From NCBI GenBank assembly GCA_009783695.1, contig WRCY01000015.1:1-42832 (forward strand): DNA of 42,832 bases, written 5' to 3'. This document shows, in pieces, positions 1,845 to 36,719 of the stretch. The translations under genes were made by a program, and so were the position numbers. The notes below the pieces were generated by a model that was given only the letters and a program-made list of their open reading frames with translations, was not told the origin of the DNA and did no database searches. Numbering within the stretch: position 1 is the stretch's first letter; each line of letters begins with the position of its first letter. The stretch comes from Oscillospiraceae bacterium (GTDB lineage Bacteria > Bacillota > Clostridia > Oscillospirales > Ruminococcaceae).

Positions 1845-4457
1845 TTAACGTTCCCCCCTTAACACCAAATACTTTTTCGCTTCTATAATATATCCGTCAT
1901 ATGTGAAAGGGGCGCTGGACTTGTTCACAATCACCTGCACGCCGTTTTCATATTCGGTGAGGCTTACGCCGTTTGAAAGGATTATATAATCAGTGATGAA
2001 CTGATTATATATATCGCCCACCTGCTCGGTGAATTCCCTGTGCAGAGCTTCGGCGGTGTCAGCCCACATTGAATACTGGTTGGCGTAGAAAGTGGGGAAC
2101 TTGGAGGTTTGAAGCTCGATGGGGCTTTCGTCCATGAAAGCGAAGTGCAGTCCCGCTCCGGATTCAACGCTCCTCAGTATGTTCATCTCAAAGTTTTCAG
2201 CCAGGTTCATCGGGCGTCCGGCATAGGGAACGAGCCCGTGCAGAACGATTTGATAGAAAGGAATCTCCTCGTCTAAAATCCCGAAGCCCTGCCACGAAAG
2301 CGGAAAGTCGGTTATAAAGCTTGCGTAAGGCGCAGCGTAGGAATACCCGCTTTGAATCATCATGCGATTACCTGCCGCATACAGCTCTTGCAGCTTCTCA
2401 ACCTGCGTGTTCATCGCGCTCTCGCGGCTGACGAAGCGCTTCTCGTTATAATCGCCCGCCAGGTTATTGCCGATTGTGCGGAAAGCGACGTTTTCCGCGC
2501 CGAAGTCCGAAATCCTTGTCATGAAGCCGTCAATCAGACCCATCATATATTCGGGGCGCGCCATATTAGCTTTAGCTCCCCACCAGTCCATCTGACCGTA
2601 CCAAATGAAACTGTACGGATAAGTTTCGATGCGCTTGCGGTTTATGTACCGCGAGCCGTCACGGTTGAGATTAAAGCCGTTGAAGGGTTTGTTCTGACGC
2701 AGGAAAAGGAAGTCTGCTTCAAGGAAAACATTGGAATCATACTCGCTTACCGTGTTTATTAAGCTCTTGAAATCGCGGGTGCTTCCAAGGCGGGAAATAA
2801 GGTTTACGCTCGTCGGAATCTCGTGCAGTATGCTCTTGTTAAACCAGCCCACAAGCCTGTAGTCCACCTCGCCGAAGCTCCTGCTGTTCAAATCGCGGAC
2901 TATATCCGCCATCTGGTTATAGGTAGTCAGCGGGTACGGCCTTTCAACGGGAACGCCGAGCACGTGCTGGTTTTTAGTAACCGAGCCGATTATTTCAACA
3001 GCCACGGGCACTGCTGATACTTCCGCTTTTTCAAGATGCGGGTACTGCTCCATGAGATACTCGCGGTACCTTTCAGCCATGCCCATATAGCCGTTCCTGC
3101 TGCAGAACATATATCTCTGAACAATGCTCTCGCCCTCCGGCAGCGAGCGCTGGAACATCCAGACGTCGGTCGCGGACTTGCCGGAAATCTCGAGCTTTTC
3201 CCTGCTGATTAGCGTATAATCGGCGAAAACATTATTATATGTTCCGCTGTCCGCCATGCCGGAAACACCGGCTCTGATAGTGGCGTAGGACGCGCCCTCC
3301 TCGATTATGCAGAGCATTGTATTACCGTTATTTTCAATCCCGAAGACAGGGAAGTGCGCCTTGGGGTCAAGGATAATAGCTTCGCGGTAAATAGCCTCAT
3401 CCCATCCGAAAACCCTGTTGCTGTACGGGCTTTGATTGCTTTTACCGTTGTTGAAGCTGATGAGCGCCCCGCTTCCGTCGGGGACAAGCATATAACCCTC
3501 ATCATCCGGTCCGCCCGCTCCGAAGAAAGGCAGAACGCGCAGGTCGATGGGCGGGTATTCGCCCCTGTATTGAATTTTGTCGTAAGGAACCCGTACATTA
3601 AAGCCGTAGTCGTCAAGCTCAACATATATCGAAATATTAAAGACAGGCTCGGTTACCTGAATATCACGCTCATAAAACTCAAGGTCGTTATAATAATCCT
3701 GCGGCGTGTAGCCGTACTCCCCGAACAATTCCTCAGCCTGCTCCTTGAGGAAGCGGCGCAGGTCCGGGCTCATTACCCAGATTTGGGTGTTTTCGAGATT
3801 CAGCGGACGCTCGGGCGTGCAGTCCTCGTTTGAATACAGTGCTATCAGCTCTTCTCTGTTGTCGTGTGAGCCGAGCCTGTTTATATCGTAAACCCTGTAA
3901 AAAACATTCCGCAGCCTGTTAACAACGTCGGCGGGCATATCGGCAGTGATTTCTTTCATTCTCCAGTCGGGCACGGCCTTCGGAACATGGTAAACGCGCT
4001 CTATGTTGCCGATTGTAAAATGCACGGCGAAGCCGTTGTCTTTGCCGTTTTCATCCTGAAGAATCTCATATTCGTAGAATTCTTTCATGACCGAGAAGTC
4101 ATGGCTGTCGAGCAGCGTCGTGTTACCCTCTATGGTGGAATAGTTCACCACGAGCAGCGACTGCATTACGCTCTGCGTAAGACCCACCGCGCTTGCCGCC
4201 GCGTCGGCGGGACCCGAAGTCCACTCGGCGCCGGTAAGCTTGTCGTCGATGACAAAGAGGGTCGTGCGCGGGTCGAACGACAGCTTTAAAAACTCATTCT
4301 CAAAAACATATTTATCCGGCCCGCCGTAATCCAGCGGGAACGAGCGGATTTCTATGTGCATATCGCCGCTGCCGGATGGCGCGCAGGCGGCAAAAATAAG
4401 CGTTATGAATATAAGCGCCAATGCCGCAGACAAAATTCTTTTCATAAATATTTTCAT
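1845..4457 (-). CDS. Large lipoprotein, DUF5696-like
   Basis: 870 residues with an N-terminal lipoprotein signal (hydrophobic stretch, then IFAAC with Cys25), so it is probably anchored on the outer face of the membrane. I recognise it as resembling DUF5696 proteins, which in Firmicutes occur beside CUT1 permeases, YIP1 and NHL/TPR proteins. The central part (about 480-800) has the alternating pattern of a possible TIM-barrel hydrolase (for example GWFNKSIL, DYNEKRFVSRES, FHFAFMDES-type ends), but no catalytic pair can be assigned. A role in handling the carbohydrate brought in by the flanking permeases is inference. The ATG at 4457 is the one carried by the upstream leader element. A second in-frame ATG lies four codons later, so the true N-terminus is M1 or M5. 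Confidence 0.75.
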   Translation of the reverse strand: MKIFMKRILSAALALIFITLIFAACAPSGSGDMHIEIRSFPLDYGGPDKYVFENEFLKLSFDPRTTLFVIDDKLTGAEWTSGPADAAASAVGLTQSVMQSLLVVNYSTIEGNTTLLDSHDFSVMKEFYEYEILQDENGKDNGFAVHFTIGNIERVYHVPKAVPDWRMKEITADMPADVVNRLRNVFYRVYDINRLGSHDNREELIALYSNEDCTPERPLNLENTQIWVMSPDLRRFLKEQAEELFGEYGYTPQDYYNDLEFYERDIQVTEPVFNISIYVELDDYGFNVRVPYDKIQYRGEYPPIDLRVLPFFGAGGPDDEGYMLVPDGSGALISFNNGKSNQSPYSNRVFGWDEAIYREAIILDPKAHFPVFGIENNGNTMLCIIEEGASYATIRAGVSGMADSGTYNNVFADYTLISREKLEISGKSATDVWMFQRSLPEGESIVQRYMFCSRNGYMGMAERYREYLMEQYPHLEKAEVSAVPVAVEIIGSVTKNQHVLGVPVERPYPLTTYNQMADIVRDLNSRSFGEVDYRLVGWFNKSILHEIPTSVNLISRLGSTRDFKSLINTVSEYDSNVFLEADFLFLRQNKPFNGFNLNRDGSRYINRKRIETYPYSFIWYGQMDWWGAKANMARPEYMMGLIDGFMTRISDFGAENVAFRTIGNNLAGDYNEKRFVSRESAMNTQVEKLQELYAAGNRMMIQSGYSYAAPYASFITDFPLSWQGFGILDEEIPFYQIVLHGLVPYAGRPMNLAENFEMNILRSVESGAGLHFAFMDESPIELQTSKFPTFYANQYSMWADTAEALHREFTEQVGDIYNQFITDYIILSNGVSLTEYENGVQVIVNKSSAPFTYDGYIIEAKKYLVLRGER

Positions 4458-4530
4458 TAAGTCCTTTCTTCACAAACAAATTATGAAAACATCGTTTTCC
4501 CGGATTTAATTATTTTTGCTTTCAAACTTT
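4455..4530 (-). promoter_or_regulatory. Hairpin-SD leader element, copy A (before the DUF5696 gene)
   Basis: On the minus strand this reads TTTGAAAG..., a core GGGAAAACGATGTTTTC (6-bp palindromic stem), outer arms AAAT/ATTT, then GTGAAGAAAGGACTTAATG, where AAAGGA is the Shine-Dalgarno and the terminal ATG is the gene's start. It has the same layout as the other copies in this window. It fills most of the 83-base gap between the YIP1 and DUF5696 genes. Confidence 0.85.
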
Positions 4531-4540
4531 ATAACTCCAA

Positions 4541-6708: not shown

Positions 6709-6720
6709 TAAAATAACCAC

Positions 6721-6759: not shown

Positions 6760-7611
6760 TCATTCCTTAATACCGGAGTTTGCCATTGTTTCGATAATAT
6801 TGCTCTGCGCACTGATGAAAACAACAAGCGGCACAATCATTATAAACATCGTGACCGCGGCTCCCACGCCCGCCCTCTGTACGCCGCCGCCGATGATTTG
6901 CCCCAGCGCGTACGGCAGGGTTTTCAACTCCTCCGAGAAGATGAAGTTGGTGGCGCGGGCGTTCCACAGGTTCTGAACCGAGAACACCATAACGGTAAGC
7001 CATGCGGGTTTTATTGTCGGCATAACTATGCGCCAGAAAATAGAAAGCTCCTTTGCGCCGTCTATTTTCGCCGCCTCAATAAGCGTCATCGGAACCGTAT
7101 CCATGAACTGCTTGAGCAAAAAGAATCCAATCGGCATAGCGATTGCGGGAACTATTACCGCAAGGTAGGTGTCAACCCAGGTGAGCCGGTTCATAATCAA
7201 AAAGTTCGGGATTGCGGTAACGTGCGGAGAGAAGAGGAGCGTAATAATTACAACCTTAAAGAAAAGCCTGCTGCCGGGGAATTTGTACTTCGATACCACA
7301 TACGCGCCCATCGAAGCGACGATGATATGCGCGAAAGTGCCCGCCGCTGTAATGAACACGGTGTTGAATATGTAACGGGAGAAAGTAATCCTCGACCTGC
7401 TCATAATCGTGAAGAGGTCGTAGAAGTTATCCATTGTCGGCTGCTGCACAAAAAGCCTCGGCGGGAACAGGAAGATTTCGTTCAGAGGCTTGAACGCGTT
7501 ATTAATCGCGAACACAAGCGGGAAAGCGAAGAACGCCCCGAATAAAATCAGCACTAAATATACAACTATGTTTCCGCCGATTGAACGGGTTTGCCGAATT
7601 CCGGTTTTCAT
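6760..7611 (-). CDS. Carbohydrate ABC transporter permease, MalG-type
   Basis: 283 residues of the MalG/UgpE/LplC type, with six predicted membrane segments and the EAA loop near residue 190 (IEAAKIDGAKELSIFWRIVMP). It is the partner of the MalF-type permease encoded just upstream, and the pair would form the channel for the substrate delivered by the large binding protein. The start is the ATG at 7611, 12 bases after the AAAGGA of leader-element copy B1. The 157-base gap to the upstream permease is filled entirely by two tandem leader elements, which is unusual for a tightly coupled pair of subunits. Confidence 0.92.
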   Translation of the reverse strand: MKTGIRQTRSIGGNIVVYLVLILFGAFFAFPLVFAINNAFKPLNEIFLFPPRLFVQQPTMDNFYDLFTIMSRSRITFSRYIFNTVFITAAGTFAHIIVASMGAYVVSKYKFPGSRLFFKVVIITLLFSPHVTAIPNFLIMNRLTWVDTYLAVIVPAIAMPIGFFLLKQFMDTVPMTLIEAAKIDGAKELSIFWRIVMPTIKPAWLTVMVFSVQNLWNARATNFIFSEELKTLPYALGQIIGGGVQRAGVGAAVTMFIMIVPLVVFISAQSNIIETMANSGIKE

Positions 7612-7769
7612 ATTTTCAATAAGTCCTTTCTTCAGAACAGGAAATTGTTAGTATCGTTTTCCCCGATTCAATAGTTTTTATTTCAAACATTTTTTCAATA
7701 AGCCCTTTCTTCAGAACAGGAAATTGTTAGTATCGTTTTCCCCGGTTCAATAGTTCTAATTACAAACAT
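7612..7769 (-). repeat. Two tandem hairpin-SD leader elements (copies B1, B2)
   Basis: Two units 79 bp apart, nearly identical. Each has GGGGAAAACGATACTAAC, where the inner GTTTTC arm is lost. GGAAA can instead pair with TTTCC, and GAAC in B2 (CCGG variant) with GTTC. The block CTGAAGAAAGGACTTATTG follows. B1 ends at the permease start. B2 lies behind it and directs no gene of its own. Confidence 0.85.
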
Positions 7770-7773
7770 TGTG

Positions 7774-8706
7774 CTACTTTCCTATGCGGTTAATGCCCTT
7801 TTGAATGTACTTATTGCAGATAATCATAATAAGGAACAGTATTGTGGCGATTGCGGAGGCGTAGCCCATATCGAAGCGCAGCGAGCCGTAGTCAACCAAG
7901 TGATTTACAATCGTATGTACGGCGTAGTCGGTACTGGGGAAGCCGCAGAGCTCCCGCGTTACGTCAGCCACGCTGAACGACTGCGTAATCGCCATTACCG
8001 CACCGAATAAAAGCATACCTTTCATATTGGGCAGCGTGATGAACCACAGCTCCTGCCAGCGGTTGCGTATGCCGTCGATATACCCCGCCTCATACTGTGA
8101 GCGGTCAATCGTGTGCAGCCCCGCAACGAATGATAAGAAGCCGTTACCGAGGCTCATCCATAATATGACTATTAAAATAACAGGCATCATGAACGTGGGG
8201 TCGGTGAGGAAGTATTTGGGCTGTCCGCTGATGAGGCCCATGTTGCGTCCCATGGCGTTAATGTACCCGTACTGGTCGCCGCTGAATATAAGCGACCAAA
8301 TCATGAAAACGTTTCCGGAAATCGTGGGCGCGTAGAAAATAAGCACTGCGAAAGCGCGCAGAAACCTCGGCAGCCCGTGAATAAACCATGCAAAAATGAA
8401 CGCCATCAAATAGCCTACAGGACCCGTTATAACCGCCATGAGCAGCGTGTTGGTAACGGCTTTGAGGAACACGTCGTCGCCGAGCAGCAGGTTAGTGTAG
8501 TTCTGCAGCCCGACGAATTTCGCCGGTTCAAATATATTATAATAAGTAAAGCTGTACCAGATGGAAATCGCGACCGGCAGGATGAAGAACGTTATAAAAA
8601 CTAACGCATAGGGGAGCAGGAACAGATAATAGGTTCTGCTCATTTTTATATCGTAACGGAACCATTCCCATCGTTCCTTGAGGGTCATTGCGCGGCTGTT
8701 TTCCAT
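7774..8706 (-). CDS. Carbohydrate ABC transporter permease, MalF/LplB-type
   Basis: 310 residues from the ATG at 8706. The longer frame starting at 8730 would translate the Shine-Dalgarno region as KKGLIEN and is rejected. It is a six-segment CUT1 permease with an N-terminal cytoplasmic stretch (LKERWEWFRYDIKMSRTYYLFLLPY, typical of the LplB/UgpA branch) and an EAA-type loop near residue 205 (YEAGYIDGIRNRWQELWFITLP). It is the first permease after the solute-binding protein and pairs with the MalG-like protein encoded next. The gene is preceded by three tandem leader elements. Confidence 0.92.
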   Translation of the reverse strand: MENSRAMTLKERWEWFRYDIKMSRTYYLFLLPYALVFITFFILPVAISIWYSFTYYNIFEPAKFVGLQNYTNLLLGDDVFLKAVTNTLLMAVITGPVGYLMAFIFAWFIHGLPRFLRAFAVLIFYAPTISGNVFMIWSLIFSGDQYGYINAMGRNMGLISGQPKYFLTDPTFMMPVILIVILWMSLGNGFLSFVAGLHTIDRSQYEAGYIDGIRNRWQELWFITLPNMKGMLLFGAVMAITQSFSVADVTRELCGFPSTDYAVHTIVNHLVDYGSLRFDMGYASAIATILFLIMIICNKYIQKGINRIGK

Positions 8707-8917
8707 ATTTTCAATAAGTCCTTTCTTCACGGGCGGGGAATGAAAGCAACAGTTTCCCCGATTCGGTAATTCGTATTTCCAACCCTTTCATTAAGCCCTT
8801 TCTTCACGGGCGGGAAATGAAAGCAACAGTTTCCCCGATTCGGTAATTCGTATTTCCAACCTTTTCATTAAGCCCTTTCTTCACGGGCGGGGAGTGAAAG
8901 CAACAGTCTCCCCTTAA
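8707..8917 (-). repeat. Three tandem hairpin-SD leader elements (copies C1-C3)
   Basis: The unit length is 77 bp. Each copy reads CGGGGAAACTGTTGCTTTC and then TTTCCCGCCCGTGAAGAAAG, so a stem CGGGGAAA/TTTCCCG is possible in place of the GAAAAC/GTTTTC stem. The third copy is cut short at its 5' side and abuts the stop codon of the solute-binding-protein gene. C1 supplies the ribosome-binding site of the permease at 8706. Confidence 0.85.
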
Positions 8918-13095: not shown

Positions 13096-13112
13096 GCCTG
13101 CTGCGGATATAT

Positions 13113-13185
13113 TAAAAATAATTACTGTTAAAACGGGGAAAACGATACTTTCGTGTCGCGTTAGTTAAAAAGGACTTAATGAAAA
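13113..13185 (+). repeat. Orphan hairpin-SD leader element (copy D)
   Basis: ACGGGGAAAACGATACTTTC, then AAAAAGGACTTAATGAAAATG. It has the form of the other leader elements but no gene follows. The ATG opens only a 17-codon frame that ends before the tRNA gene, and the next plus-strand gene has its own promoter and Shine-Dalgarno. It may be a relic of a lost gene or a freshly inserted copy. Confidence 0.75.
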
Positions 13186-13224
13186 TGTCCGCAAAGCGGA
13201 CACTAAAATTGTGTATTATTAATT
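13183..13224 (+). repeat. Short hairpin module, first of two copies
   Basis: TGTCCGC-AAA-GCGGACA (13186-13202) is followed about 11 bases later by ATTATTAATTG. A second copy with the same layout lies at 16185-16226. Confidence 0.55.
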
Positions 13225-13231
13225 GTTTGTA

Positions 13232-14633: not shown

Positions 14634-14778
14634 AACATAAAAGCAAATTGCACTAAAACGGCGAAACGGAACTTTTCATTTTTATTTAATACAAAAATGA
14701 AAATGAAAGGCTTAAAATAAAACAATTGAATCGGAAAAAATTACTTTCATGATTTGTTTGTGAAGAAAGGATTTAATG
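14634..14778 (+). repeat. Two hairpin-SD leader elements (E1 degenerate, E2 intact)
   Basis: E2 (about 14711-14778) reads AACAATTGAATCGG, a weak core, ATGATTTGTT, then GTGAAGAAAGGATTTAATG. Outer arms AACAA/TTGTT and ATC/GAT can pair. E1 (about 14634-14712) is an eroded copy (GCGAAACGGAACTTTTC, then GAAAGGCTTAA). E2 provides the ribosome-binding site and ATG for the M23 peptidase gene. Confidence 0.75.
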
Positions 14779-16119
14779 GAAATTAAAATGAAAAAGAGAA
14801 AGTACATACGGGTTGCGGTTCTCGCTATGACAGTCTGCATGATGCTTGCGTTTGCGCCGGCGGTCGGAAGTTCGGGGCGGACGGAATCGGATATCAACGC
14901 GGAAATCAAAGCCAATGAACAAAAAGCCGAGAGGCTCGCGGAGGAGCAAAGAGAACGCGAAGCGGAAATCGCGGCGACACAGGGCGACAGAAATCAATCG
15001 CGCCAGAGGGAAGTTTTGGTTGAGCAGAGTATAGCCGCCGTAAACGAGCGTATAGCTATACTTAACGCCAACATTGTGCTTCAGCAGGAAGCAATCGCCA
15101 AAAAGGAGGGTGAAATAGAAGCGCTTGAGCAGCGTATTTCGGACGCGGAGCGCGAGATTGAGCTGCGTGAGCATAAAATCGCCCTGCTCGAGGCCGAGAA
15201 CGAGGAAAACTTAGAGAAATTCGGACTGCTCGTCAAGAACAACTACATGACGGGCTCGCTCGGAATGGTGGATATTCTGCTTGATTCCGGCGACTTTTAC
15301 GAGATGATTGTCCGCGCCGATGTTCTGCAGAAAGCAGCGGAAAGAAACACCGACTTCATGAACGATTTGCTTGCTGCGATTGAGGCGCAGGAGCGTGAAA
15401 TAGAGGAGCTTGAGGAGCTGAAGCTCAGCCTTCAGGCAAATATTGAACTTTGCGAGCAGGAGAAAGACGCGCTTGAGCTTGCGCTCGAAAAGCTAAACGA
15501 GGACATGGCTGAGCTCGAGCGTGAAATGGACGGGGAACAGGAAAGACTGCGCGTTTTAGCGGGAGAAACAGCGGTTTTGCAACAGCAAATCGACGGCATG
15601 TACCGGCAGTTTAACGCTACGAACGAAGAGCTTGAAGAACTCGAAAAAATGATTTCGCAGCTCATAAAAGAGCTGCAAAACTTAAACAGACCTAATTATT
15701 CGGGCGACGGCTTTGTCTGGCCGGTAGATGAGAAGTTTCAGCGAATCACCTGCGGCTTCGGCTGGGACGCGGGGTGGAGCCGCTGGCATCGCGCCATTGA
15801 CATAGGAAACGCCGGAATCAACGGCGCAAATATCTACTCAATCCAGTCGGGGACGGTTATAGTCGCGGTCGAAAGCAACTCGAGAAGCGGCTACGGCTCG
15901 TATGTGGTCGTTGACCACGGCGGCGGCTACACCTCGCTTTACTCGCATATGCAGTTCGGCTCGGTGCGGGTTTCGGTCGGGCAGGAGGTTAAGGTCGGGC
16001 AGGTGCTCGGGCTTGTCGGCTCGACGGGGCTTTCGACGGGACCTCACCTGCACTTTGAAATCCGCGTGAACGGCGAAGCGAGGAATCCGCTGGATTACAG
16101 CTATTCGTATGTCGGGTGA
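14776..16119 (+). CDS. Secreted coiled-coil M23 peptidase (EnvC/NlpD-like murein hydrolase)
   Basis: 447 residues. A signal peptide (about 1-34, VAVLAMTVCMMLAFAPAVG) is followed by a very long coiled coil (about 35-300, rich in Glu/Lys heptads) and a C-terminal M23/LytM domain (about 315-445). The metal-ligand motifs HxxxD (WHRAIDIGN) and HxH (GPHLHFEIR) are both intact, so it should be an active zinc endopeptidase that cuts peptide crosslinks in peptidoglycan. The coiled coil suggests control by an FtsEX-like or other membrane partner, as in EnvC/PcsB (family knowledge). The ATG at 14776 belongs to the leader element. An in-frame ATG four codons later is the alternative. Confidence 0.92.
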   Translation: MEIKMKKRKYIRVAVLAMTVCMMLAFAPAVGSSGRTESDINAEIKANEQKAERLAEEQREREAEIAATQGDRNQSRQREVLVEQSIAAVNERIAILNANIVLQQEAIAKKEGEIEALEQRISDAEREIELREHKIALLEAENEENLEKFGLLVKNNYMTGSLGMVDILLDSGDFYEMIVRADVLQKAAERNTDFMNDLLAAIEAQEREIEELEELKLSLQANIELCEQEKDALELALEKLNEDMAELEREMDGEQERLRVLAGETAVLQQQIDGMYRQFNATNEELEELEKMISQLIKELQNLNRPNYSGDGFVWPVDEKFQRITCGFGWDAGWSRWHRAIDIGNAGINGANIYSIQSGTVIVAVESNSRSGYGSYVVVDHGGGYTSLYSHMQFGSVRVSVGQEVKVGQVLGLVGSTGLSTGPHLHFEIRVNGEARNPLDYSYSYVG

Positions 16120-16160
16120 CGGACAATGGACAATGAACAATGGACAATGAACAATTTTCG
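16120..16160 (+). repeat. ACAAT-type tandem repeat after the M23 gene
   Basis: Directly after the TGA stop come repeated GGACAAT / GAACAAT units (for example GGACAATGAACAAT twice). The stop-codon context TGACGGACAAT matches TGACGAACAAT after the permease ending at 6760. Confidence 0.7.
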
Positions 16161-16184
16161 AATTGCTTGCGGCGATAATTTTCA

Positions 16185-16226
16185 AAATATCCGTGAAGCG
16201 GACACAACAATTATTCATTATTAATT
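16185..16226 (+). repeat. Short hairpin module, second copy; overlaps the SpoIID gene end
   Basis: ATCCGT-GAA-GCGGAC, then ATTATTAATTG, as at 13183-13224. The right half lies inside the convergent SpoIID-like gene and encodes its last residues (INNE). Confidence 0.55.
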
Positions 16227-17188
16227 GCCGCGATAGTAATATTTGTATAATAATAGTTTAAAATATCATCGCAGGTATGTCCGCGGCGCGCCATGTAATC
16301 CGCGCCATACTGGCTGAGCCCCACGCCGTGCCCGTGCCCCCATGTCGTCACGACGAAAGCACTTCCGTTATATGTAATCTCGAACGCTGCGGAGCGCAGA
16401 TTAAGAATCCGCCAGAGGTCGCCGCCGGAAAGCGTAAGGTTCCTTGCGCTGACCGCCGAGACGTAGCCGATGCTGTCGGCGGAATAATCCGTGAACCATC
16501 TTGCATAATCGAGCGGCATGATTATTTCAGGGTCAAAGCCCAGCAGAACGTCACGCATCTGCGAGGCTGAAATCTCGTTTGTATTTACAAAGCTTGTGAA
16601 CTCCCTGCACCAGTCGCTCGGAACGCGCTCAAGGTACGGGAAGTCGAGCCCCCAGATATAACGCGCCGTGTTGGTCGCGCCGGCGGAAACGCTGTGATAC
16701 ACAGCATAAATCGGCTCGCTCTCGTAAAGTATGACGCGGGTTGCGCCGTACTCGGCGGCTTCTTTAATTTTGGCGAGATAAATATCATATTCAATCCCGT
16801 AATAATCGCGTGCCTGCTCTTCGGTGAAAAAAGGCTGGCAGGTTACGCTGCTGTTTGAAAAATCCGCACCGTTTATTTCCGGCATCGGGAAGCTTTTATT
16901 GTTAAGAGCGAGGCGAAGCGCGTAAGTATGCGCGGCGACGGCCTGAGCTTTTAGCGCTTCTGCGTGATACCCGGGCGGAATCTGCGCAAAAAGGCAGCCG
17001 ACGAGGTAATCCGCCGCGCCGATTTCGATTATTTCCCCGCTTTCCGTGAGAAAGACGCGGAAAGTGTTCTGCGCTTCATATTCCGATACCTGCGAAGCTC
17101 CTCTTGCCGGGAAAGCAGAGTTCCACAAAAATGGCACGAGAAACAGCAAAACCGCAAAAATGAGCAGAATAATGATGATATTTTTCAT
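16211..17188 (-). CDS. SpoIID/LytB-family protein
   Basis: 325 residues from the ATG at 17188 (the extended frame from 17218 only translates the leader element). An N-terminal membrane anchor (KNIIIILLIFAVLLFLVPFLW) is followed by the SpoIID domain (ALKAQAVAAHTYALRLA, WGHGHGVGLSQYGADYMARRGHTCDDILNYYY). SpoIID proteins are lytic transglycosylases that thin septal peptidoglycan during engulfment. The Glu that follows the VxGV/C.. strand in active members (consensus A-E-M-P) is here Gln69 (FAQIPPGY), so activity is doubtful. The neighbouring M23 enzyme is convergent, recalling the SpoIID-SpoIIQ context, but it is not SpoIIQ-like in its coiled-coil part. Confidence 0.88.
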   Translation of the reverse strand: MKNIIIILLIFAVLLFLVPFLWNSAFPARGASQVSEYEAQNTFRVFLTESGEIIEIGAADYLVGCLFAQIPPGYHAEALKAQAVAAHTYALRLALNNKSFPMPEINGADFSNSSVTCQPFFTEEQARDYYGIEYDIYLAKIKEAAEYGATRVILYESEPIYAVYHSVSAGATNTARYIWGLDFPYLERVPSDWCREFTSFVNTNEISASQMRDVLLGFDPEIIMPLDYARWFTDYSADSIGYVSAVSARNLTLSGGDLWRILNLRSAAFEITYNGSAFVVTTWGHGHGVGLSQYGADYMARRGHTCDDILNYYYTNITIAAINNE

Positions 17189-17264
17189 ATTTTCATTAAG
17201 TCCTTTCTTCACAAACAAATCATGAAAACAGCGTTTTCCCAGATTCAGTCGTTTTGTTTAAAAA
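17186..17264 (-). promoter_or_regulatory. Hairpin-SD leader element, copy F (before the SpoIID-like gene)
   Basis: On the minus strand: AAACAAAACGACTGAATC, core GGGAAAACGCTGTTTTC, ATGATTTGTTT, then GTGAAGAAAGGACTTAATG. The arms AAACAA/TTGTTT and ATC/GAT are complementary. The element's own ATG opens a three-codon frame (ATG AAA ATA TGA) whose stop overlaps the gene's ATG. Confidence 0.85.
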
Positions 17265-22731: not shown

Positions 22732-22745
22732 ACTTAATAGATTTA

Positions 22746-23064
22746 AGCTTGAAACAAAATCCCTGTGAACCGGGGAAAACGTTGTTTTCATTTCCCGCTC
22801 GTGAAGAAAGGGCTTAATGAAGACAAGCTTGAAATAAAATCCCTGTGAACCGGGGAAAATGTTGTTTTCATTTCCCGCTCGTGAAGAAAGGGCTTAATGA
22901 AGACAAGCTTGAAACAAAATCCCTGTGAACCGGGGAAAACGTTGTTTTCATTTCTCGTTAGTGAAGAAAGGACTTAATGAAAGATAAATTCTTAAACAAA
23001 ACGACTGAATCGGCGAAAACGTTGTTTTCATGATTTGTTAGTGAAGAAAGGACTTAATGAAAAC
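22746..23064 (+). repeat. Four tandem hairpin-SD leader elements (G1-G4)
   Basis: There are four units of 80, 80, 80 and 79 bp. G1-G3 read GCTTGAAACAAAATCCCTG, CGGGGAAAACGTTGTTTTC, TTTCCCG, then GTGAAGAAAGGGCTTAATG. G4 belongs to the other sequence class (GACTGAATCGGCGAAAAC, ATGATTTGTTAG) and is the one that carries the ribosome-binding site of the GtrA-like gene. G1 and G2 differ only at a few bases, so the amplification looks recent. Confidence 0.9.
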
Positions 23065-23454
23065 ATGAGAATAACAAAAAAATATAGAGAGCCCGCGCTG
23101 TATGTTTTTTTCGGCGGGCTGACGACGCTGGTGTCGGTTGCGGTACAGTTCGGCGCGGATTATCTCGGCGCAAATGTTGCACTCGCGACTACAATTTCGT
23201 GGGTTTGCGCGGTTGCGTTTGCGTATGTTTGCAATAGACTGTTTGTTTTTAAAAGCAAGGCGCACTGGCTGAAACAAGCCATCACTTTTTACGGCGCACG
23301 GCTCGCGACTTATTTCCTTGAACTCGGATTTATGCTTGTGACGGTTGAAGTGCTGCTGTTTAATATGCACGCAATGAAACTCACAGCGCAGGTTTTTGTG
23401 CTGACGGGGAATTATCTGTTAAGTAAGTTTTTTATATTTCGTAAAGGCAAATAA
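23065..23454 (+). CDS. GtrA-family membrane protein
   Basis: 129 residues from the ATG at 23065 (an upstream TTG frame only translates the leader element). Four membrane segments and the GtrA signature are visible (YVFFGGLTTLVSVAVQF, CAVAFAYVCNRLFVFKS, NYLLSKFFIFRKGK). GtrA-like proteins are thought to move lipid-linked sugars across the membrane for cell-surface polysaccharide or teichoic-acid decoration (family knowledge). It is a single gene here, preceded by the largest tandem array of leader elements in the window. Confidence 0.92.
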   Translation: MRITKKYREPALYVFFGGLTTLVSVAVQFGADYLGANVALATTISWVCAVAFAYVCNRLFVFKSKAHWLKQAITFYGARLATYFLELGFMLVTVEVLLFNMHAMKLTAQVFVLTGNYLLSKFFIFRKGK

Positions 23455-23519: not shown

Positions 23520-23849
23520 ATGAACATACAGATTTTCGGAAAGAATAAATGCTTCGACACAAGGAAAGCCGAGCGGTATTTTAAAGAGCGCGGAATTAAA
23601 TTTCAAGCCGTTGATATTTTAGATAAGGGGCTCAGTAAAGGCGAGCTGAACTCTGTAATCGCTACAGTCGGACTTGACGCACTGGTATCTGAAAAAGCCG
23701 ATGAATACCATCTTTTTAAGTGCTTGACGCCCGAAGCGAAGCCGGAAAAGCTGCTTGAATGTCCGAGGCTGTATAAGACGCCCGTTGTGCGTAACGGCAG
23801 GCAGGCGACGGTAGGGTATAAGCCCGACGTCTGGAAGAAGTGGGACTAA
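23520..23849 (+). CDS. ArsC/Spx-family thioredoxin-fold protein
   Basis: 109 residues with the ArsC/Spx/YffB pattern: a start KNKCFDTRKAERYFKERGIKFQAVDI with a single Cys at the thioredoxin active-site position (no CxxC), and YKTPVVRNGRQATVGYKPDVWKKW at the C-terminus. It could be an arsenate-reductase-like oxidoreductase. A regulatory Spx role is less likely because the CxxC switch is missing. An eroded AAAGGAACTTAATAAG before the ATG recalls the leader element. Its 3' end overlaps the convergent folA gene by 4 bases. Confidence 0.88.
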   Translation: MNIQIFGKNKCFDTRKAERYFKERGIKFQAVDILDKGLSKGELNSVIATVGLDALVSEKADEYHLFKCLTPEAKPEKLLECPRLYKTPVVRNGRQATVGYKPDVWKKWD

Positions 23850-24331
23850 GCTTTTACATACTCGCAGAATCTATATTCCAATCCGTTATGAACTTTGGTT
23901 TCAGACTCGGATTTAAGAACCCATTCACTCTTTTTGTCAACATTCGGAAAAGTCCTGTCTGCTTCTGCGCAGGCGTTAATTTTTGTGATGTAGGCGCGGG
24001 TACAATGGGGAAGAAACATTTCATACACCGACTGCCCGCCGATTATGAATACGTCGGCGGGATTATGCTTTGCGGCTTCGGCAAGCACCTGCTCCGCCGA
24101 CTTGCACACAATTGCCCCCTCTGCGTCAATATCCTCATGCGAGAGGATTATATTCGTGCGGTTTTTGAGCGGTTTTGAACCGGGCAGCGATTTAAACGTA
24201 GCAAGCCCCATAATAACTGTTTTACCATCGGTGACCCTCTTGAAATGCTGCATATCATCGGGGATTGAATAAAGCAGCTCGTTATTGCACCCGATTCCCC
24301 AGTTGTTGTCAACTGCCACGATTACATTCAT
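23846..24331 (-). CDS. folA: Dihydrofolate reductase
   Basis: 161 residues, normal for DHFR. It has the N-terminal strand and substrate loop (MNVIVAVDNNWGIGCNNELLYSIPDDMQHFK), the NADPH-binding KTVIMGLATFKSLP, and FIIGGQSVYEMFLP. It reduces dihydrofolate to tetrahydrofolate, replacing the cofactor oxidised by thymidylate synthase, whose gene lies just upstream in the same direction. The start at 24331 follows leader-element copy I1 (AAAGGACTTAATAAAAATATG). Confidence 0.95.
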   Translation of the reverse strand: MNVIVAVDNNWGIGCNNELLYSIPDDMQHFKRVTDGKTVIMGLATFKSLPGSKPLKNRTNIILSHEDIDAEGAIVCKSAEQVLAEAAKHNPADVFIIGGQSVYEMFLPHCTRAYITKINACAEADRTFPNVDKKSEWVLKSESETKVHNGLEYRFCEYVKA

Positions 24332-24490
24332 ATTTTTATTAAGTCCTTTCTTTACCTTATTCGGGATGAAAACAACGTTTTCCCCGATTCAACACGTTTG
24401 ATTTTTAAGTTTTTATTAAGTCCTTTCTTTACCTTATTCGGGATGAAAACAACGTTTTCCCCGATTCAACATATTTAAATTTAAAACTTG
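24332..24490 (-). repeat. Two tandem hairpin-SD leader elements (I1, I2)
   Basis: Two near-identical units 77 bp apart. On the minus strand: GTTGAATCGGGGAAAACGTT, GTTTTCATCCCGAATAAGG, then AAAGAAAGGACTTAATAA. Outer arms TCGGG/CCCGA can pair outside the GAAAAC/GTTTTC stem. The usual GTGAAG is replaced by GTAAAG and the element ATG by ATA. Confidence 0.85.
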
Positions 24491-27532: not shown

Positions 27533-29623
27533 TTAAATTACAGCAAAATCAATCATACCCAGCGCGACGTTTGCGTTCTCACAGCGGACACGAACCCTGT
27601 CGCCGAGCGCGTACCGCTTGCCGGAAAGCTGCTCGGTAAGGCTGATGTTGTCGTCAGCGGCAAGGACGCCCAGGCTCTCGCCGCTCACCCGTCCCTCGAC
27701 TGTATTGGGCAGCATAACGAAAAAGCCGCTCTGCGTAACGCCCGAGATAATCCCGTCAAACTCCCCGCCGATATGTTCCTGCATATATTCCGCCATGAAA
27801 AACTTTTCGCAGTCGCGCTCGGCATTGACAGCGCGCAGCTCGGCGTGCGAGGATTTAATTCCCGCTTCATGAACGAACTTATTATACCGCTTCGCGACAG
27901 CCGATTTATCATTATTTCTAATATAATCGCTCAGGATTCTATGAATGATTAAATCGGGATAACGCCGGATAGGCGAGGTGAAATGCGCGTATTCCTTCAT
28001 CACGAGCCCGAAGTGACCCAGAGGCTCGTCCGAATATTTTGCCTTCATCATCGCGCGGAGCACGAGCGTGTTTATAATCCCCGCCTTTTCCGTGCCTCGC
28101 GCCTTTTCGATAATCCCTGCAAGGTCGGAAGCCCCCCGGCCTTTTAAAACATATTCTGCGCCGATTACAGCGAGGGTGTCCCGCAGTCCGTCAAGCTTTT
28201 CAACAGTCGGCGCCTCGTGAACGCGGTAAACAAAAGGAATGGCGGCTTCCATTGCAAGCTTTGCCGCACAGTTGTTCGCTGCGAGCATGAATTCCTCAAT
28301 TATGTTTTCGGAAACGCCGCCCTCGCGCTTTTTAACGTCGATGCATTTGCCGCTCTCGTCGCAGATAATTTTAGTTTCAGAGGTTTCAATGAACGGCGCG
28401 CCTCTGTCTTTGCGGTTTTGCCTGAGTTTTTCAGAAAGCTCCCGCATGAGCGGCAGACTGTCCGCAACCTCTGCATATTTTTCGTTCCTTTCGCCGGCAA
28501 GGATTGCGTTGATTTCCGAATAAACGCCCTGCAGGCGTGATTTTATTACGGTTTTCTCAAACTTGAAAGAGGTGATTTCGCCGCTGCCTTTCAGTTCCAT
28601 CAGGCATGAGAACGCGAGCCGGTCGGTTTTCGGGTTGAGTGAACAGATGCCGTTGGAAAGCTCTTTCGGCAGCATCGGCACTACCAAATCTGCGATATAA
28701 ACGCTTGTCCCGCGTTCGAGCGCGTCCTTGTCCAAGGCGCTGTTTTTTAGCACGTAATGCGAAACGTCCGCGATATGCACGCCGAGCTTATAACCTGTTT
28801 TAGTTTTTTCGATGCTGATTGCGTCGTCGATATCCTTGGTGTCTGCACCGTCGATGGTGAAGATGATTTCATCGCGCAAATCCAGACGGGATACGATTTC
28901 GGATTCCGATATTCCTTTGTCGGAGATGATTTTTGCGCTGTCCTTTGCTTCTTTTGAGAATTCAACGGGTATGTTTTTCTCGTCGATATACGCGCTCACG
29001 CAAACCCGCGCACTGCTTGCGTTTCCGTAGACGGACGTTATGTTTGCGGTATGTTCGCTATGCCGCTCGCCGCGTTCAGACAGCGAAAAGCTGACCTTAT
29101 CGCCCTCGCGCGGCTTAAAGCCGCCGTAGCCGCGGATTTCAATCGGCTCGCCCGAGAAGCTGCCGGGCAGAATGAAAAGCCCGCCGCCCTCCTTGACAAT
29201 CATACCCGTAAGGGTGTTTTTGCTATGCTCCTCGACAAGCACGACCTCCGCACCGGCACTTAGATTTTCGCCGCGCTCGCGGCTGGTGACCCGCGCAATC
29301 ACGATGTCGCCGGGCACGCTGCCGAGCAGCTTCTTGCCGGGGACGAAGAATTCTTCGCCGACTTCAAGGCATTTTATAAAACCGTGCGCCTTAAAAACCC
29401 GCATTACTTCTGCTTTGAAAAAGTCTTTTCCCGCCAGCTTCCAGCCTCTTTTACACTGGCTGATAAGTCCTTTGCGCGACAAATCGTTCAGCGCGGGTTT
29501 AAGCTCGGTAGTTTTTTTCGCGCCGGTGTTTTTCATAAGAGCTGAAGAATTAAGCGGTTTATCTGCGCTGTAAAGCGTGCGGATTATTTTGTCGGTGAAT
29601 CTTTTTTTCATATCTATTTTCAT
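27533..29623 (-). CDS. rnr: Ribonuclease R
   Basis: 696 residues. It has an N-terminal winged-helix part (about 1-65), cold-shock-like OB domains (to about 230), the RNB catalytic domain with the metal-binding TIDGADTKDIDDAISIE and IADVSHYV, and a C-terminal S1 domain (GGEFDGIISGVTQSGFFVMLPNTVEGRVS). It is a 3'-5' exoribonuclease for structured RNA, including trans-translation clean-up. In Firmicutes rnr usually follows secG directly; here the gap of about 550 bp holds the hairpin island. The N-terminal MKIDM comes from the leader element's ATG. Confidence 0.96.
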   Translation of the reverse strand: MKIDMKKRFTDKIIRTLYSADKPLNSSALMKNTGAKKTTELKPALNDLSRKGLISQCKRGWKLAGKDFFKAEVMRVFKAHGFIKCLEVGEEFFVPGKKLLGSVPGDIVIARVTSRERGENLSAGAEVVLVEEHSKNTLTGMIVKEGGGLFILPGSFSGEPIEIRGYGGFKPREGDKVSFSLSERGERHSEHTANITSVYGNASSARVCVSAYIDEKNIPVEFSKEAKDSAKIISDKGISESEIVSRLDLRDEIIFTIDGADTKDIDDAISIEKTKTGYKLGVHIADVSHYVLKNSALDKDALERGTSVYIADLVVPMLPKELSNGICSLNPKTDRLAFSCLMELKGSGEITSFKFEKTVIKSRLQGVYSEINAILAGERNEKYAEVADSLPLMRELSEKLRQNRKDRGAPFIETSETKIICDESGKCIDVKKREGGVSENIIEEFMLAANNCAAKLAMEAAIPFVYRVHEAPTVEKLDGLRDTLAVIGAEYVLKGRGASDLAGIIEKARGTEKAGIINTLVLRAMMKAKYSDEPLGHFGLVMKEYAHFTSPIRRYPDLIIHRILSDYIRNNDKSAVAKRYNKFVHEAGIKSSHAELRAVNAERDCEKFFMAEYMQEHIGGEFDGIISGVTQSGFFVMLPNTVEGRVSGESLGVLAADDNISLTEQLSGKRYALGDRVRVRCENANVALGMIDFAVI

Positions 29624-29695
29624 TAAGTCCTTTCTTCATAAATGAATCATGAAAATAACACTTTCTCCGATTCAATTGTTTTATTTTCAAACTTA
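29621..29695 (-). promoter_or_regulatory. Hairpin-SD leader element, copy J (before rnr)
   Basis: On the minus strand: AAAACAATTGAATCGG, core GAAAGTGTTATTTTC, ATGATTCATTTATG, then AAGAAAGGACTTAATG. Outer arms GAATC/GATTC pair perfectly, where other copies have ATC/GAT. Confidence 0.85.
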
Positions 29696-29705
29696 TGTTC
29701 CTTTT

Positions 29706-30162: not shown

Positions 30163-30178
30163 TTGTTTTTGATTTGCT

Positions 30179-30695: not shown

Positions 30696-30724
30696 ATTAT
30701 AGCATAAAGTGGTTGACTTGTCAA
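30696..30724 (-). promoter_or_regulatory. Promoter of secG
   Basis: TTGACA (30724-30719), 17 bases, TATAAT (30701-30696) on the minus strand. Its -35 box abuts the -35 box of the divergent udk promoter. Confidence 0.8.
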
Positions 30725-30741
30725 TACCTTTATGTTAAAAT
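30713..30741 (+). promoter_or_regulatory. Promoter of the uridine-kinase-like gene
   Basis: TTGACT (30713-30718), 17 bases, TAAAAT (30736-30741). Transcription near 30748 would include leader-element copy K and the 161-bp insert in the 5' leader. Confidence 0.75.
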
Positions 30742-30770
30742 AATAGGGAATGAATTTTTCTTAGCATTTA

Positions 30771-30838
30771 AAGTTTAAAATAAAAATCGTACTAAGGAAA
30801 ACGTTGTTTTCATTTCGGTTTTGTAATGAAAGGACTTA
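30771..30838 (+). promoter_or_regulatory. Hairpin-SD leader element, copy K, interrupted
   Basis: AAAATCGTAC, core GGAAAACGTTGTTTTC, TTTCGGTTTTG, then AATGAAAGGACTTA, where it breaks off at 30838. AAAATCG and CGGTTTT pair (one G-U). Its start-codon side resumes after the insert near 31002. Confidence 0.8.
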
Positions 30839-30999
30839 GGCACCCTCCGAAAACCTCCGCCGCACTATCGCAGCACAGCTTTATCCGTTATTCTGTACAA
30901 AAATACTCGTTAATACACAAAGCATTACCTGCGTTTTTTGTGCAGAAGCGCGAACAAATCTGCACCACGCTAATACAGCGTAGGTTTTCGGAGGGTGCC
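30839..30999. mobile_element. 161-bp inverted-repeat element inserted in leader copy K
   Basis: The ends carry a perfect 18-bp inverted repeat (GGCACCCTCCGAAAACCT at 30839 and its complement ending at 30999), flanked by TTA on both sides. No coding capacity is present. The right end contains GGAGGG. It has the form of a MITE. It separates the Shine-Dalgarno of the leader element from the udk start codon. Confidence 0.7.
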
Positions 31000-31012
31000 T
31001 TACTTAATAATT

Positions 31013-31924: not shown

Positions 31925-31954
31925 ATTGTTTGAAAAAACGGAATATTTTTTTAC

Positions 31955-31983
31955 TTGAAAAAGTGCGAAACTTGTCGTATAAT
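31955..31983 (+). promoter_or_regulatory. Promoter of the CoA-dehydratase-activase-like gene
   Basis: TTGAAA (31955-31960), 17 bases, TATAAT (31978-31983). The leader RNA from about 31990 would carry element L and a 161-bp insert. Confidence 0.75.
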
Positions 31984-32013
31984 GACATTGTATATAAAAC
32001 AAAAATTGAAGAG

Positions 32014-32086
32014 TTAGTTTAAAAATAAACACAATTGAATCGGGGAAAACATTGTTTTCATTGTTCGTTTGTGAAGAAAGGACTTA
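32014..32086 (+). promoter_or_regulatory. Hairpin-SD leader element, copy L, interrupted
   Basis: AAACACAATTGAATC, core GGGGAAAACATTGTTTTC, ATTGTTCGTTTG, then GTGAAGAAAGGACTTA, broken at 32086. Arms AAAC/GTTT and CAA/TTG pair. The missing TTAATG part is found at 32248-32253 after the insert. Confidence 0.85.
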
Positions 32087-32247
32087 GAACATACATTCAA
32101 TAACACTCAACACTCATATTTTGACACATTTTGCGCCACTTTTTGTTAAATTTTCTTGAAATAAACAAATTATTTCTGTGAAAATTTGCCTTAATTGACA
32201 CAAAACTCGCCTAAAATTTGAGTATTTCGGTTATTGAATACAAGTTC
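32087..32247. mobile_element. 161-bp inverted-repeat element inserted in leader copy L
   Basis: The ends match as an imperfect 18-bp inverted repeat (GAAC..  ..ATTCAATAAC against its complement at 32230-32247), flanked by TTA direct repeats (32084-32086 and 32248-32250). The internal sequence is A/T-rich, non-coding and unlike the insert at 30839, yet of exactly the same length and position. Removing it and one TTA restores GGACTTAATGG. Confidence 0.65.
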
Positions 32248-32250
32248 TTA

Positions 32251-35200: not shown

Positions 35201-36591
35201 TGGTTTCCGTAATTGAGGAGCGCGAGCGCAAGGGTAAAAACGACCCCGAAAAGTATGACGGTTATAAAAAACCACCGAAATTCACGCAGGAGATGCGCAA
35301 GAATCATACTATTTTGGCGCCGCAGATGTCGCCGATACATTTCGAGCTTGTCGAAGCCGCGTTCCGCTACTGCGGGTATAACCTTGAAATCCTCAAGGAC
35401 TGCGGCAAAGACGCGGTTGATGCGGGGCTCAAGTACGTCAACAACGACTCCTGCTACCCCGCGATTCTGACAGTCGGGCAGTTCATGTCCGCGCTCGAAA
35501 GCGGCAAATACGACTTAAACAGCACGTCGCTGATGATTACGCAGACGGGCGGCGCGTGCCGCGCGACGAACTATGTCGGGCTGTTAAAAAAAGCGCTCGC
35601 CGACGGCGGTTACGGGAATATTCCGCTTATATCGCTGAATTTTGTCGGGCTTGAAAAACAACCGGGCTTCAAAATCACGGCGAAGCTGGCTGTGCGCGGG
35701 TTCATGGCGGTGATTTACGGCGACGTGCTTTGCCGCTGCCTGTACCGCACGCGTCCTTACGAAATGGAAAAAGGTTCCGCAAACAGGCTTTACGAGCAGT
35801 GGAACAGGAAGCTTCGCGAAGATTTAAAATCCATGAACCTGCGTAAATACAAAAAAAATATCAGGCAGATAATAAGGGATTTCGATGAATTGCCGGTGTT
35901 TGATATTAAAAAGCCGCGGGTCGGCTTGGTCGGTGAAATCCTCGTAAAGTATCATCCTGTCGCCAACAACAACGTAATAGATTTAATCGAAAAAGAGGGC
36001 GCGGAGGCTGTAGTGCCGGATTTAATGGGTTTCATCTACTACATATGCGACCACGCCAACTCAAAAGCCGAGCTGCTTACGGTTTCAAAGAAGCGTAAGA
36101 TTTTGTCAAACCTTGCAATCAAAGGCTTCGAGTGGCTGGAGAAGTCGTATTTAAAGGCTTGCGAGGGCACTAAGTTCGGGACGTTCATGAAGATTTCCGA
36201 GATGAGGAAGCTTGTTGACGGCATAGTTTCGACAGGTAACATAGCGGGCGAGGGCTGGTTCCTTTCGGCTGAGATGATTGAGCTCATACACAGCGGCGTG
36301 AATAACATAATCTGCATGCAGCCGTTTGCCTGCCTGCCCAACCACGTCACGGGCAAGGGCATTATCGGCGAACTCAAGCGCCGAAACCCCGAAAGCAACA
36401 TAGTAGCGATTGATTACGACCCGGGGGCATCGGAGGTAAATCAGATTAACAGAATAAAACTAATGCTCGCGCAATGCGACGTACAATGCGACGTACAATG
36501 TACAGTTGACAATGAACAATTGACAATTAATGCGGAATTGACAAGTGATGAGAAAAATGATATAATAGAAAAAGAGCTTATCACAACATAA
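32251..36591 (+). CDS. Giant acyl-CoA dehydratase activase-related protein (two BcrAD/BadFG domains, DUF2229, HgdB-like)
   Basis: 1446 residues from the ATG at 32251 (ATG at 32263 is the alternative). Order: ASKHA ATPase domain 1 ([18 protein letters not shown], cluster-type Cys in [10 protein letters not shown]); domain 2 ([28 protein letters not shown]); a Cys-rich segment ([23 protein letters not shown]); DUF2229; and a C-terminal region resembling the HgdB dehydratase subunit. In 2-hydroxyglutaryl-CoA dehydratase, HgdC-type proteins give one electron to the dehydratase at the cost of ATP through a 4Fe-4S cluster. The fused Firmicutes form is of uncertain substrate. The last 40 residues ([22 protein letters not shown]...) are repeat-derived. 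Confidence 0.9.
36480..36540 (+). repeat. ACAAT-type repeat inside the end of the giant gene
   Basis: GCGACGTACAAT twice, then TTGACAATGAACAATTGACA and related units, all translated in frame. They add about 20 residues and a low-complexity tail to the protein. Confidence 0.7.
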
Positions 36592-36647
36592 ATTACATTA
36601 TAACCAACCCCGGGCGAACCGGAGATGAGCAGAAACGCAAAACAGCG

Positions 36648-36719
36648 CAATTAAACCCGGGTGAATCGGGGAAAACGAAACTAATCAAAATAATTTTGTT
36701 AAGAAAGGACAAAGGTAAA
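36648..36719 (+). promoter_or_regulatory. Diverged hairpin-SD leader element, copy M (before the SPFH gene)
   Basis: TGAATCGGGGAAAACGAAAC, then TTAAGAAAGGACAAAGG before the ATG. The inner right arm is lost. A partial second copy (GGGCGAACCGG, 36611 on) lies upstream. Confidence 0.6.

Follow-up and report, generated by a model that had tools for sequence, protein, structure and literature searches.

The repeated block of about 80 bp described here is quite probably a mobile element, inserting at translation starts and bringing its own ribosome-binding site. It was found in a stretch of 42,832 nucleotides (the window) from an uncultured Oscillospiraceae bacterium whose close relatives come from termite guts, and was followed through the host's own draft genome (G000, 94% complete) and related genomes, the named relatives being MAGs. 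A literature search of titles and abstract openings returned no description of this repeat.

Copies and their position relative to genes

When up to three mismatches are allowed, the core GGGGAAAACGNTGTTTTCAT matches the window 13 times, where shuffled sequences lead one to expect 0.03 matches. A profile HMM finds 20 copies, which form 12 clusters and occupy both strands; 19 reach E<=1e-3. This agrees with the initial annotation, which had counted about 20 dispersed copies on both strands and whose layout and tandem period of 77-80 nt also hold. The copies and two promoter-like sites are listed below with nhmmer E-values.

4452..4529, minus: element before DUF5696 gene (1845-4457, minus); E 3.1e-16; DUF5696 by Pfam
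7614..7690, minus: element, gene-proximal of pair, before BPD permease gene (6760-7611, minus); E 9.4e-15; Pfam
7693..7769, minus: element, distal unit of BPD permease pair; E 2.2e-13
8708..8785, minus: element, gene-proximal of triple, before second BPD permease gene (7774-8706, minus); E 1.5e-17; Pfam
8786..8864, minus: element, middle unit of triple; E 2e-17
8862..8913, minus: element, distal unit of triple, matching model positions 30-81 only; E 1.1e-9
13112..13184, plus: element without adjoining called start codon, opposite-strand tRNA downstream; E 1.5e-12
14640..14690, plus: weak copy, probably decayed, upstream of the 14712 copy; nhmmer E 0.007 only
14712..14781, plus: element before M23 peptidase gene (14776-16119, plus); E 1.2e-8; Pfam
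17191..17264, minus: element before SpoIID-domain gene (16211-17188, minus); E 8.1e-17; Pfam
22745..22821, plus: element, unit 1 of four-unit array before GtrA-like gene (23065-23454, plus); E 3.8e-19; Pfam
22825..22901, plus: element, unit 2 of GtrA-like array; E 2.3e-18
22905..22982, plus: element, unit 3 of GtrA-like array; E 4.2e-20
22992..23062, plus: element, unit 4, gene-proximal, of GtrA-like array; E 2.6e-16
24334..24411, minus: element, gene-proximal of pair, before putative folA (23846-24331, minus), site empty in G023; E 2.4e-14
24411..24489, minus: element, distal unit of putative-folA pair; E 2.2e-14
29618..29693, minus: element before rnr (27533-29623, minus); E 2.6e-13
30713..30741, plus: promoter-like hexamers TTGACT-17-TAAAAT upstream of the 30772 copy, also in G023; sequence comparison
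30772..30838, plus: element, 3' part broken by a palindromic insertion; E 1.6e-9
31955..31983, plus: promoter-like hexamers TTGAAA-17-TATAAT upstream of the 32016 copy, similar form in G023; sequence comparison
32016..32086, plus: element in presumed leader of the 32218-36591 gene; E 5.8e-17
36648..36712, plus: element before gene 36720-37640 (plus); E 4.7e-8

Pfam assigns downstream genes to DUF5696, two BPD permeases, M23, SpoIID, GtrA and the RNB domain of rnr, confirming their initial labels. The block had been said always to point at a gene. Nine of the 12 clusters terminate no more than 7 nt from a predicted start; for those at 13112, 30772 and 32016 the distance to the next called gene is 272, 174 and 131 nt. 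Promoters had been reported before two copies, taken here as 30772 and 32016; since G023 has the promoter-like hexamers in its orthologous region as well, both copies very probably lie in a transcribed leader.

In 434 kb of the host genome the profile finds 199 copies, 180 of them outside the window; core matches across the genome number 298, against none for the reversed control, and extrapolation to the whole genome gives about 700-1000 copies. Their position relative to genes is non-random, as the initial annotation implied: 196 of 199 copies are intergenic, 195 of 198 point at the next gene, most commonly ending one base before its ATG, and 170 of 198 are preceded by a codirectional gene. 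Of the 405 genes with a called upstream neighbour, 116 (about 29%) have a unit in the 150 nt that precede them. Tandem arrays reach four units, and neighbouring units have a mean identity of 85% (67 pairs) against 65% for random pairs. GAAGAAAGGACTTA and AATCGGGGAAAACG are strongly conserved, the arms variable. The gene ATG lies exactly 12 nt past AAAGGA in only 58 of 124 scored gene-proximal copies, and neat spacing between Shine-Dalgarno (SD) motif and ATG is favoured by the gene caller, which gave preference to starts preceded by an SD motif such as AAAGGA; this bias affects the orthologue alignments less.

Carriers are patchy: matches occur in 10 of 71 genomes of the genus, strong in seven, and the host genome is the sole carrier among 148 sampled genomes of the family. 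Model matches are confined to this genus among the genomes searched, a set outside which the mycobacteria lie, and a strict pattern gave no match in viral contigs. The carriers include G000, G012, G049, G006, G020, G052 and G056. Several species have a unit consensus of their own; copies are diverse in the host genome and near-identical in G012.

Insertion between Shine-Dalgarno motif and start codon

Insertion at the start codon is seen from orthologous sites filled in one genome and empty in another, where the alignments give the order old SD, unit, ATG. Among 73 orthologous starts compared with G023, 18 carry a unit in the host genome only, none in both, none in G023 only and 55 in neither; among 97 compared with G049, 26 are host-only, four shared, one G049-only and 66 without a unit. 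The genes for L17, S11, IF-1, SecY, L30, S5, L6, L14, L22 and L2 have a unit upstream in the host genome and none in G049, and the rnr site is empty in G023 (locus L085) and G012 (L086) and filled in G049 (L087). Similarity at the four shared host/G049 sites is mixed; in two pairs (0.82 and 0.76) it lies above the average between genomes, 0.68, and a few of the insertions may therefore be older.

Insertion in G012 is recent. Measured against the most typical copy, 22 of its 29 copies (25 loci) reach an identity of 95% or more and 26 reach 90% or more, a near-identical share that may be overstated because the loci were chosen among the best model matches. Near-identical copies precede different genes and have unrelated left flanks. 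The unit in its cleanest form runs from AAGTTTGAAAC to CTTAATGAAAAT, ends that show no terminal inverted repeats. No clear target-site duplication was seen in the flanks: left-flank bases vary, the right flank is nearly always TATG, and a 1-nt duplication is possible. Filled and empty orthologous sites together with near-identical G012 copies establish, at the level of sequence comparison, that the units are dispersed, apparently mobile insertions with a set orientation and insertion position; copy identity and the clean empty sites would favour gain over loss.

An SD motif is present in the last 20 nt of 22 of 24 G012 left flanks; in G023 the corresponding figures are 945 of 5000 for random 20-mers, 640 of 749 for the true upstream windows and 167 of 742 for windows set 60-40 nt ahead of starts. 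Median spacing from SD to junction is 6 in G012, against 8 from SD to ATG in G023 genes. Many copies have, at the 3' end of the unit, a mini-ORF, ATG AAA ATA TGA, whose stop overlaps the gene start as ATGA. For the 25 G012 copies with a canonical gene ATG, an ATG stands at the mini-ORF position in 23 and ATGA is formed in 22, against 369 of 674 ATG starts in G023 (Fisher p 0.0008). Mini-ORF start and TGA are both present in 29 of 58 canonical copies of the host genome (124 scored), so coupling is not universal, half of these copies being without the full mini-ORF.

We propose that the element enters in one orientation between SD and start codon, which would leave the old SD stranded upstream of the unit. 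The motif GAAGAAAGGA at the 3' end of the element would serve as a replacement SD, so that the gene is probably still translated; we take this motif to pair with the 16S end, the exact 16S tail pattern not being found in the 94% complete host draft. In many copies the mini-ORF would pass ribosomes to the gene through -4 coupling, a mechanism put forward for MIRUs. Landing between genes with initiation restored would make the element nearly harmless, translation of occupied genes presumably being preserved. Movement would be by a transposition-like process acting in trans, and most tandem growth is likely due to local duplication.

Three candidate movers were rejected because they have no match in the 94% complete G000 and do not track the carriers: Y1/RAYT (PF01797), matched in one of nine genomes searched (G020) and unmatched in 7 of 8 relatives; reverse transcriptase, in four of nine (G012, G049, G017, G023); and IS110 transposase, in five of eight (G006, G020, G017, G049, G052). 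A search for copies split around a gene gave 12 half-match pairings, mostly weak. Retro-transposition by 5' truncation was also rejected: with 15 half-matches per half in G049, 13 are paired, two 5'-only and two 3'-only, and in the selected G012 loci 30 of 30 are paired, which gives no 5'/3' bias.

Competing explanations

The initial annotation described a mobile 5'-UTR module with a structured RNA and its own ribosome-binding site; mobility and site are retained here and the structured RNA is not. RNAalifold gives no consensus pair on 51 host copies or on 159 copies from eight genomes, and in a tree-based covariation test of our own (not R-scape) the best covarying pairs, in host copies and in the 159 alike, are not helices, so that no covarying helix of the kind anticipated emerged and the structured-RNA reading was rejected. 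The outer arms, described as often complementary, are so in some copies and form no conserved helix. When halves are swapped between copies, folding is somewhat less favourable than with a copy's own halves (-7.40 against -8.34 kcal/mol; 137 copies, 0 of 20000 permutations). This leaves weak complementarity within copies; the outer arms alone give a weak effect (z -1.9), nearly equalled by a control region (z -1.7). This folding advantage would suit a structured regulatory RNA leader (riboswitch, thermometer or protein-binding) common to a regulon, as would the fixed 5'-leader position, the palindromic core and the promoter-like sites upstream of two copies. Such a leader is nevertheless improbable, given the missing pair and helix, tandem arrays of up to four units, and occupied genes that are unrelated and mostly unoccupied in relatives; at gathering score, moreover, Rfam matches in the window are a tRNA and a cobalamin riboswitch elsewhere, with none at the repeat. 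A DNA-binding or promoter site with the GAAAACnnnGTTTTC palindrome as operator would account for palindromic core and high copy number, but orientation is fixed, the end is tied to the start codon and a codirectional gene precedes 170 of 198 copies; of the 113 clusters after such a gene, 63 overlap its stop codon or begin no more than 25 nt from it, where a promoter would hardly fit, and this reading is very improbable.

That units, once dispersed, were adopted by the host and kept for raising or decoupling downstream translation is unlikely, if worth keeping in view. Two observations speak for it, the units before ribosomal-protein genes and the strong conservation of GAAGAAAGGACTTA and AATCGGGGAAAACG where the arms vary, but distal units are nearly as conserved as gene-proximal ones (SD conservation 0.884 and 0.913; singles 0.887), so that SD conservation is no proof of translational use; occupied genes also differ between species, and G023 orthologues manage without a unit. 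A purely local origin, in which leaders multiply by tandem duplication or replication slippage and no mobile element takes part, fits the higher identity of adjacent units (85% against 65%) and one G012 array that repeats the first 12 nt of its gene. It is refuted as a full account, since it cannot put near-identical units at unrelated genes in G012 or fill sites empty in relatives, and we give it hardly any weight.

Relation to known repeats and significance

By described features alone, the closest known kind to the mobile element proposed here is the mycobacterial MIRU. MIRU units are directly oriented and lie in gaps between codirectional genes, in copy numbers far below those of the present repeat; in size, orientation and intercistronic position, as reportedly given in the original 1997 account by Supply and co-workers, they resemble it. 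The units here likewise face the next gene (195 of 198), follow a codirectional one (170 of 198) and, from filled and empty sites, insert at the start codon. In the account of Supply et al. 1997 conveyed by PMC12548453, MIRUs are short, apparently mobile repeats inserting at start codons, and the passage concerned describes a -4 coupling between the MIRU ORF and the gene that is believed to keep the influence on expression small. In the present repeat ATGA is found in 22 of 25 canonical G012 copies, and mini-ORF start and TGA together in only 29 of 58 canonical host copies. Unlike MIRU, the repeat belongs to another phylum (Oscillospiraceae, not mycobacteria), carries a strong SD, has a mini-ORF of only 3 codons that is absent in many copies, and occurs in several species with a consensus in each.

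REP/BIME and ERIC are short, palindromic, intergenic and dispersed, and the mobility of REP is linked to Y1 (RAYT) transposases, whereas PF01797 has no match in the host genome or in 7 of 8 relatives. MITEs are small, non-coding and presumably moved in trans; the repeat differs in having no terminal inverted repeats and no clear target duplication. The pneumococcal BOX, RUP and SPRITE are introduced in PMC3049150 as interspersed repeats of small size, copies of which lie in operons or next to them, and, in its Table 1, are overrepresented between convergent genes. Compared with that description, copies here stand at start codons in one orientation.

A broader reading, plausible but tentative, is that the repeat represents an undescribed mobile class whose machinery recognises start sites (SD plus ATG, ATGA preferred), and that this portable ribosome-binding site has, in repeated bursts in related species, rewired initiation of many genes, ribosomal-protein genes included. 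The repeat is a natural experiment in genome-wide replacement of ribosome-binding sites, and as the same genes occur with and without a unit in related species, effects on expression and translational coupling are measurable. Which enzyme can aim at start codons is a puzzle whose answer is searchable, given copies that range from near-identical in G012 to diverse in the host genome. If a strategy like that of MIRU operates outside mycobacteria, it would point to an evolutionary solution of a general kind and not to a peculiarity of mycobacteria.

Copy number, position and arrays

According to the initial annotation, a block of 77-80 bp recurs about 20 times, in front of 11 genes. A profile indeed recovers 20 copies in the window (19 at E<=1e-3), grouped in 12 clusters, with 13 matches to the core pattern against 0.03 expected. 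In the whole source genome, a 2.23 Mb draft in 97 contigs, the core is matched 298 times and a reversed control not at all. A 434 kb sample, made up of the window plus 391.5 kb of the four contigs with the lowest numbers, contains 199 profile copies, of which 180 fall outside the window; extrapolation by length gives about 1000 copies genome-wide, extrapolation by core pattern (85 of the 298 matches inside the sample) about 700.

Genes were called with a simple codon-based caller of our own, whose start bonus for an upstream Shine-Dalgarno (SD) motif, including AAAGGA, favours neat spacing. On these calls coding sequence makes up 85% of the DNA, yet 196 of the 199 copies in the sample lie between genes; 195 of 198 are oriented toward the next gene, and the most frequent spacing under this SD-favouring caller places the unit's end 1 base before the ATG. 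A codirectional gene lies upstream of 170 of 198 copies; among 113 clusters following such a gene, 32 start at or inside its stop codon and 63 at most 25 nt from it. Of the 405 genes having a called upstream neighbour, 116 carry a unit no more than 150 nt upstream. In the source genome one to four units directly precede the genes for L17, S11, IF-1, SecY, L30, S5, L6, L14, L22 and L2, ten Pfam-checked genes selected because they bear units, while their orthologues in the same-genus genome G049 have none; of the 25 consecutively numbered called genes C1_55 to C1_79, 13 have a unit.

The 199 copies form 132 clusters (90 single, 23 double, 13 triple and 6 quadruple). Since neighbouring units share 85% mean identity (67 pairs) and random pairs 65%, most tandem arrays appear to have been built by local duplication; adjacent pairs at the low end of similarity are no closer than random ones and may stem from re-insertion. 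SD conservation is nearly as high in distal as in proximal units (0.884 versus 0.913), with the A of GGA as an exception (0.73 versus 0.94). On average, copies are 65% identical to one another in the source genome and 83% in G049. In one array of the same-genus genome G012 (locus L259) the gene's opening 12 nt recur between two units, resembling template switching. A unit in G049 (C6, 11241-11268) may represent a minimal form: it apparently lacks the hairpin core but retains the SD and the two ends.

Further features of the window are:

13054, 16109-16165 and 36488-36530, short ACAATG/ACAATT-type repeats (GACAATGAACAATGGACAATG)
13182-13225 and 16184-16227, two related hairpin-like repeats (GTCCGCAAAGCGGAC type), 82% alike
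30839-31003, palindromic MITE-like sequence of about 165 bp within the 3' part of the element copy at 30772 (+), TTA at each side
41849-42067, (-), cobalamin riboswitch (Rfam RF00174, 45.3 bits)

The palindromic sequence has no second copy in the samples from the source genome, G023 and G049. The ACAATG/ACAATT-type repeats give a raw count of 32 regex matches in 434 kb.

Comparison with relatives and landing site

By rnr, the named close relatives are Oscillospiraceae bacterium isolates Emb289, Pal332, Nt197 and Th196, which we take to be termite-gut samples. One paper links Emb289P3 to termite guts, and another, whose subject is a peatland bacterium, mentions Nt197P3. Loci were assigned to genomes, all of them drafts, by coordinate match (L085=G023, L086=G012, L087=G049, identical to G080, and L090=G052, identical to G058).

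G023 has one model match in the whole genome and none in the 814 kb compared; in G049, 414 kb contain 18 copies. Among 73 orthologous pairs with G023, 18 carry the element in the source genome alone, no G023 site is occupied, and 55 lack it on both sides; for the 97 pairs with G049, the numbers are 26 source-only, 4 shared, 1 G049-only and 66 neither. Alignment of GGGGAGGTAAAA-ATGGC in G023 with ACGGAGGTAA, two units and GTATGGC in the source genome reveals the footprint of an insertion. At two places (C3_28 and C4_1) genes overlapping in G023 are driven apart in the source genome, and the rnr site (29618..29693, -) carries a unit in the source genome and in G049 but none in G023 or G012.

The G012 set, chosen among the best model hits, comprises 29 copies in 25 loci with different genes downstream and unrelated left flanks; identity to the most typical copy is at least 95% in 22 and at least 90% in 26 of the 29, and below 80% in two. 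Orthologous sites filled here and empty in G023, together with near-identical G012 copies at different genes, bear out the proposal of a copied, apparently mobile module, and on these comparisons the element appears to be an insertion. An SD-like motif lies within the last 20 nt of 22 of 24 G012 left flanks, against a background of 945 of 5000 (19%) random G023 20-mers; the motif occurs in 167 of 742 (23%) windows 60-40 nt upstream of G023 starts and in 640 of 749 (85%) directly upstream. Its median distance is 6 nt to the G012 junction and 8 nt to the ATG in G023 genes. These left flanks, and a right flank that almost invariably reads TATG, place the element in the SD-ATG spacer, to which it brings its own GAAGAAAGGA SD.

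RNA structure

The structured 5'-UTR proposed earlier was not upheld. RNAalifold predicts zero pairs, whether on 51 diverse copies or on a non-redundant set of 159 from 8 genomes. Covariation, assessed by G-test with background correction and a tree-based null, gives no helix on 132 copies (best pair E=0.57) or on the 159-copy, 8-genome set (best pair E=0.125), both best pairs lying outside any helix. On these tests the element has no conserved RNA structure. Half-swapping of 137 copies runs counter to these negatives: folding is more stable for the intact copies than for the swapped ones (-8.34 versus -7.40 kcal/mol; 0 of 20000 permutations), a hairpin tendency that may be relevant to mobility rather than regulation.

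Taxonomic range, known repeats and translation

Model R1 (E<=1e-6) was scored on the top candidates per genome only (31 to 150), so that counts are floors and diverged families are possibly missed. It matches at least 10 of 71 genus genomes including the source genome, which is one of seven strong carriers (with G012, G080, G006, G020, G058 and G056); weak carriers are G055 (at least 3 matches), G003 and G023 (at least 1 each). Consensus sequences vary between species. Among the top candidates scored, the source genome is the only one of 148 family genomes from 123 genera with a match, and none of 16 genomes of other families has one.

A search of open-licence papers brought up no description of the element. 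BOX, RUP and SPRITE repeats are enriched between convergent genes, according to PMC3049150, unlike the element here. The nearest known kind is the mycobacterial interspersed repetitive units (MIRUs), described in the review PMC12548453, citing Supply et al. 1997, as seemingly mobile, inserting at start codons and carrying a -4 coupled ORF. The likeness, judged by description, lies in the same insertion strategy; the host differs, and the strong SD is apparently an addition.

In the G012 set, 25 copies have the gene ATG at the canonical position; the mini-ORF position reads ATG in 23 of these, and 22 show ATGA, where ATG-AAA-ATA-TGA runs into the start of the gene. ATGA occurs at 369 of 674 ATG starts of G023, taken as background (p 0.0008 against the G012 copies, copy dependence ignored), and in the source genome at 39 of 58 starts with the element versus 128 of 260 without (p 0.014, copy dependence likewise ignored). 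The layout of the units suggests that translation of the downstream gene would be preserved after insertion.
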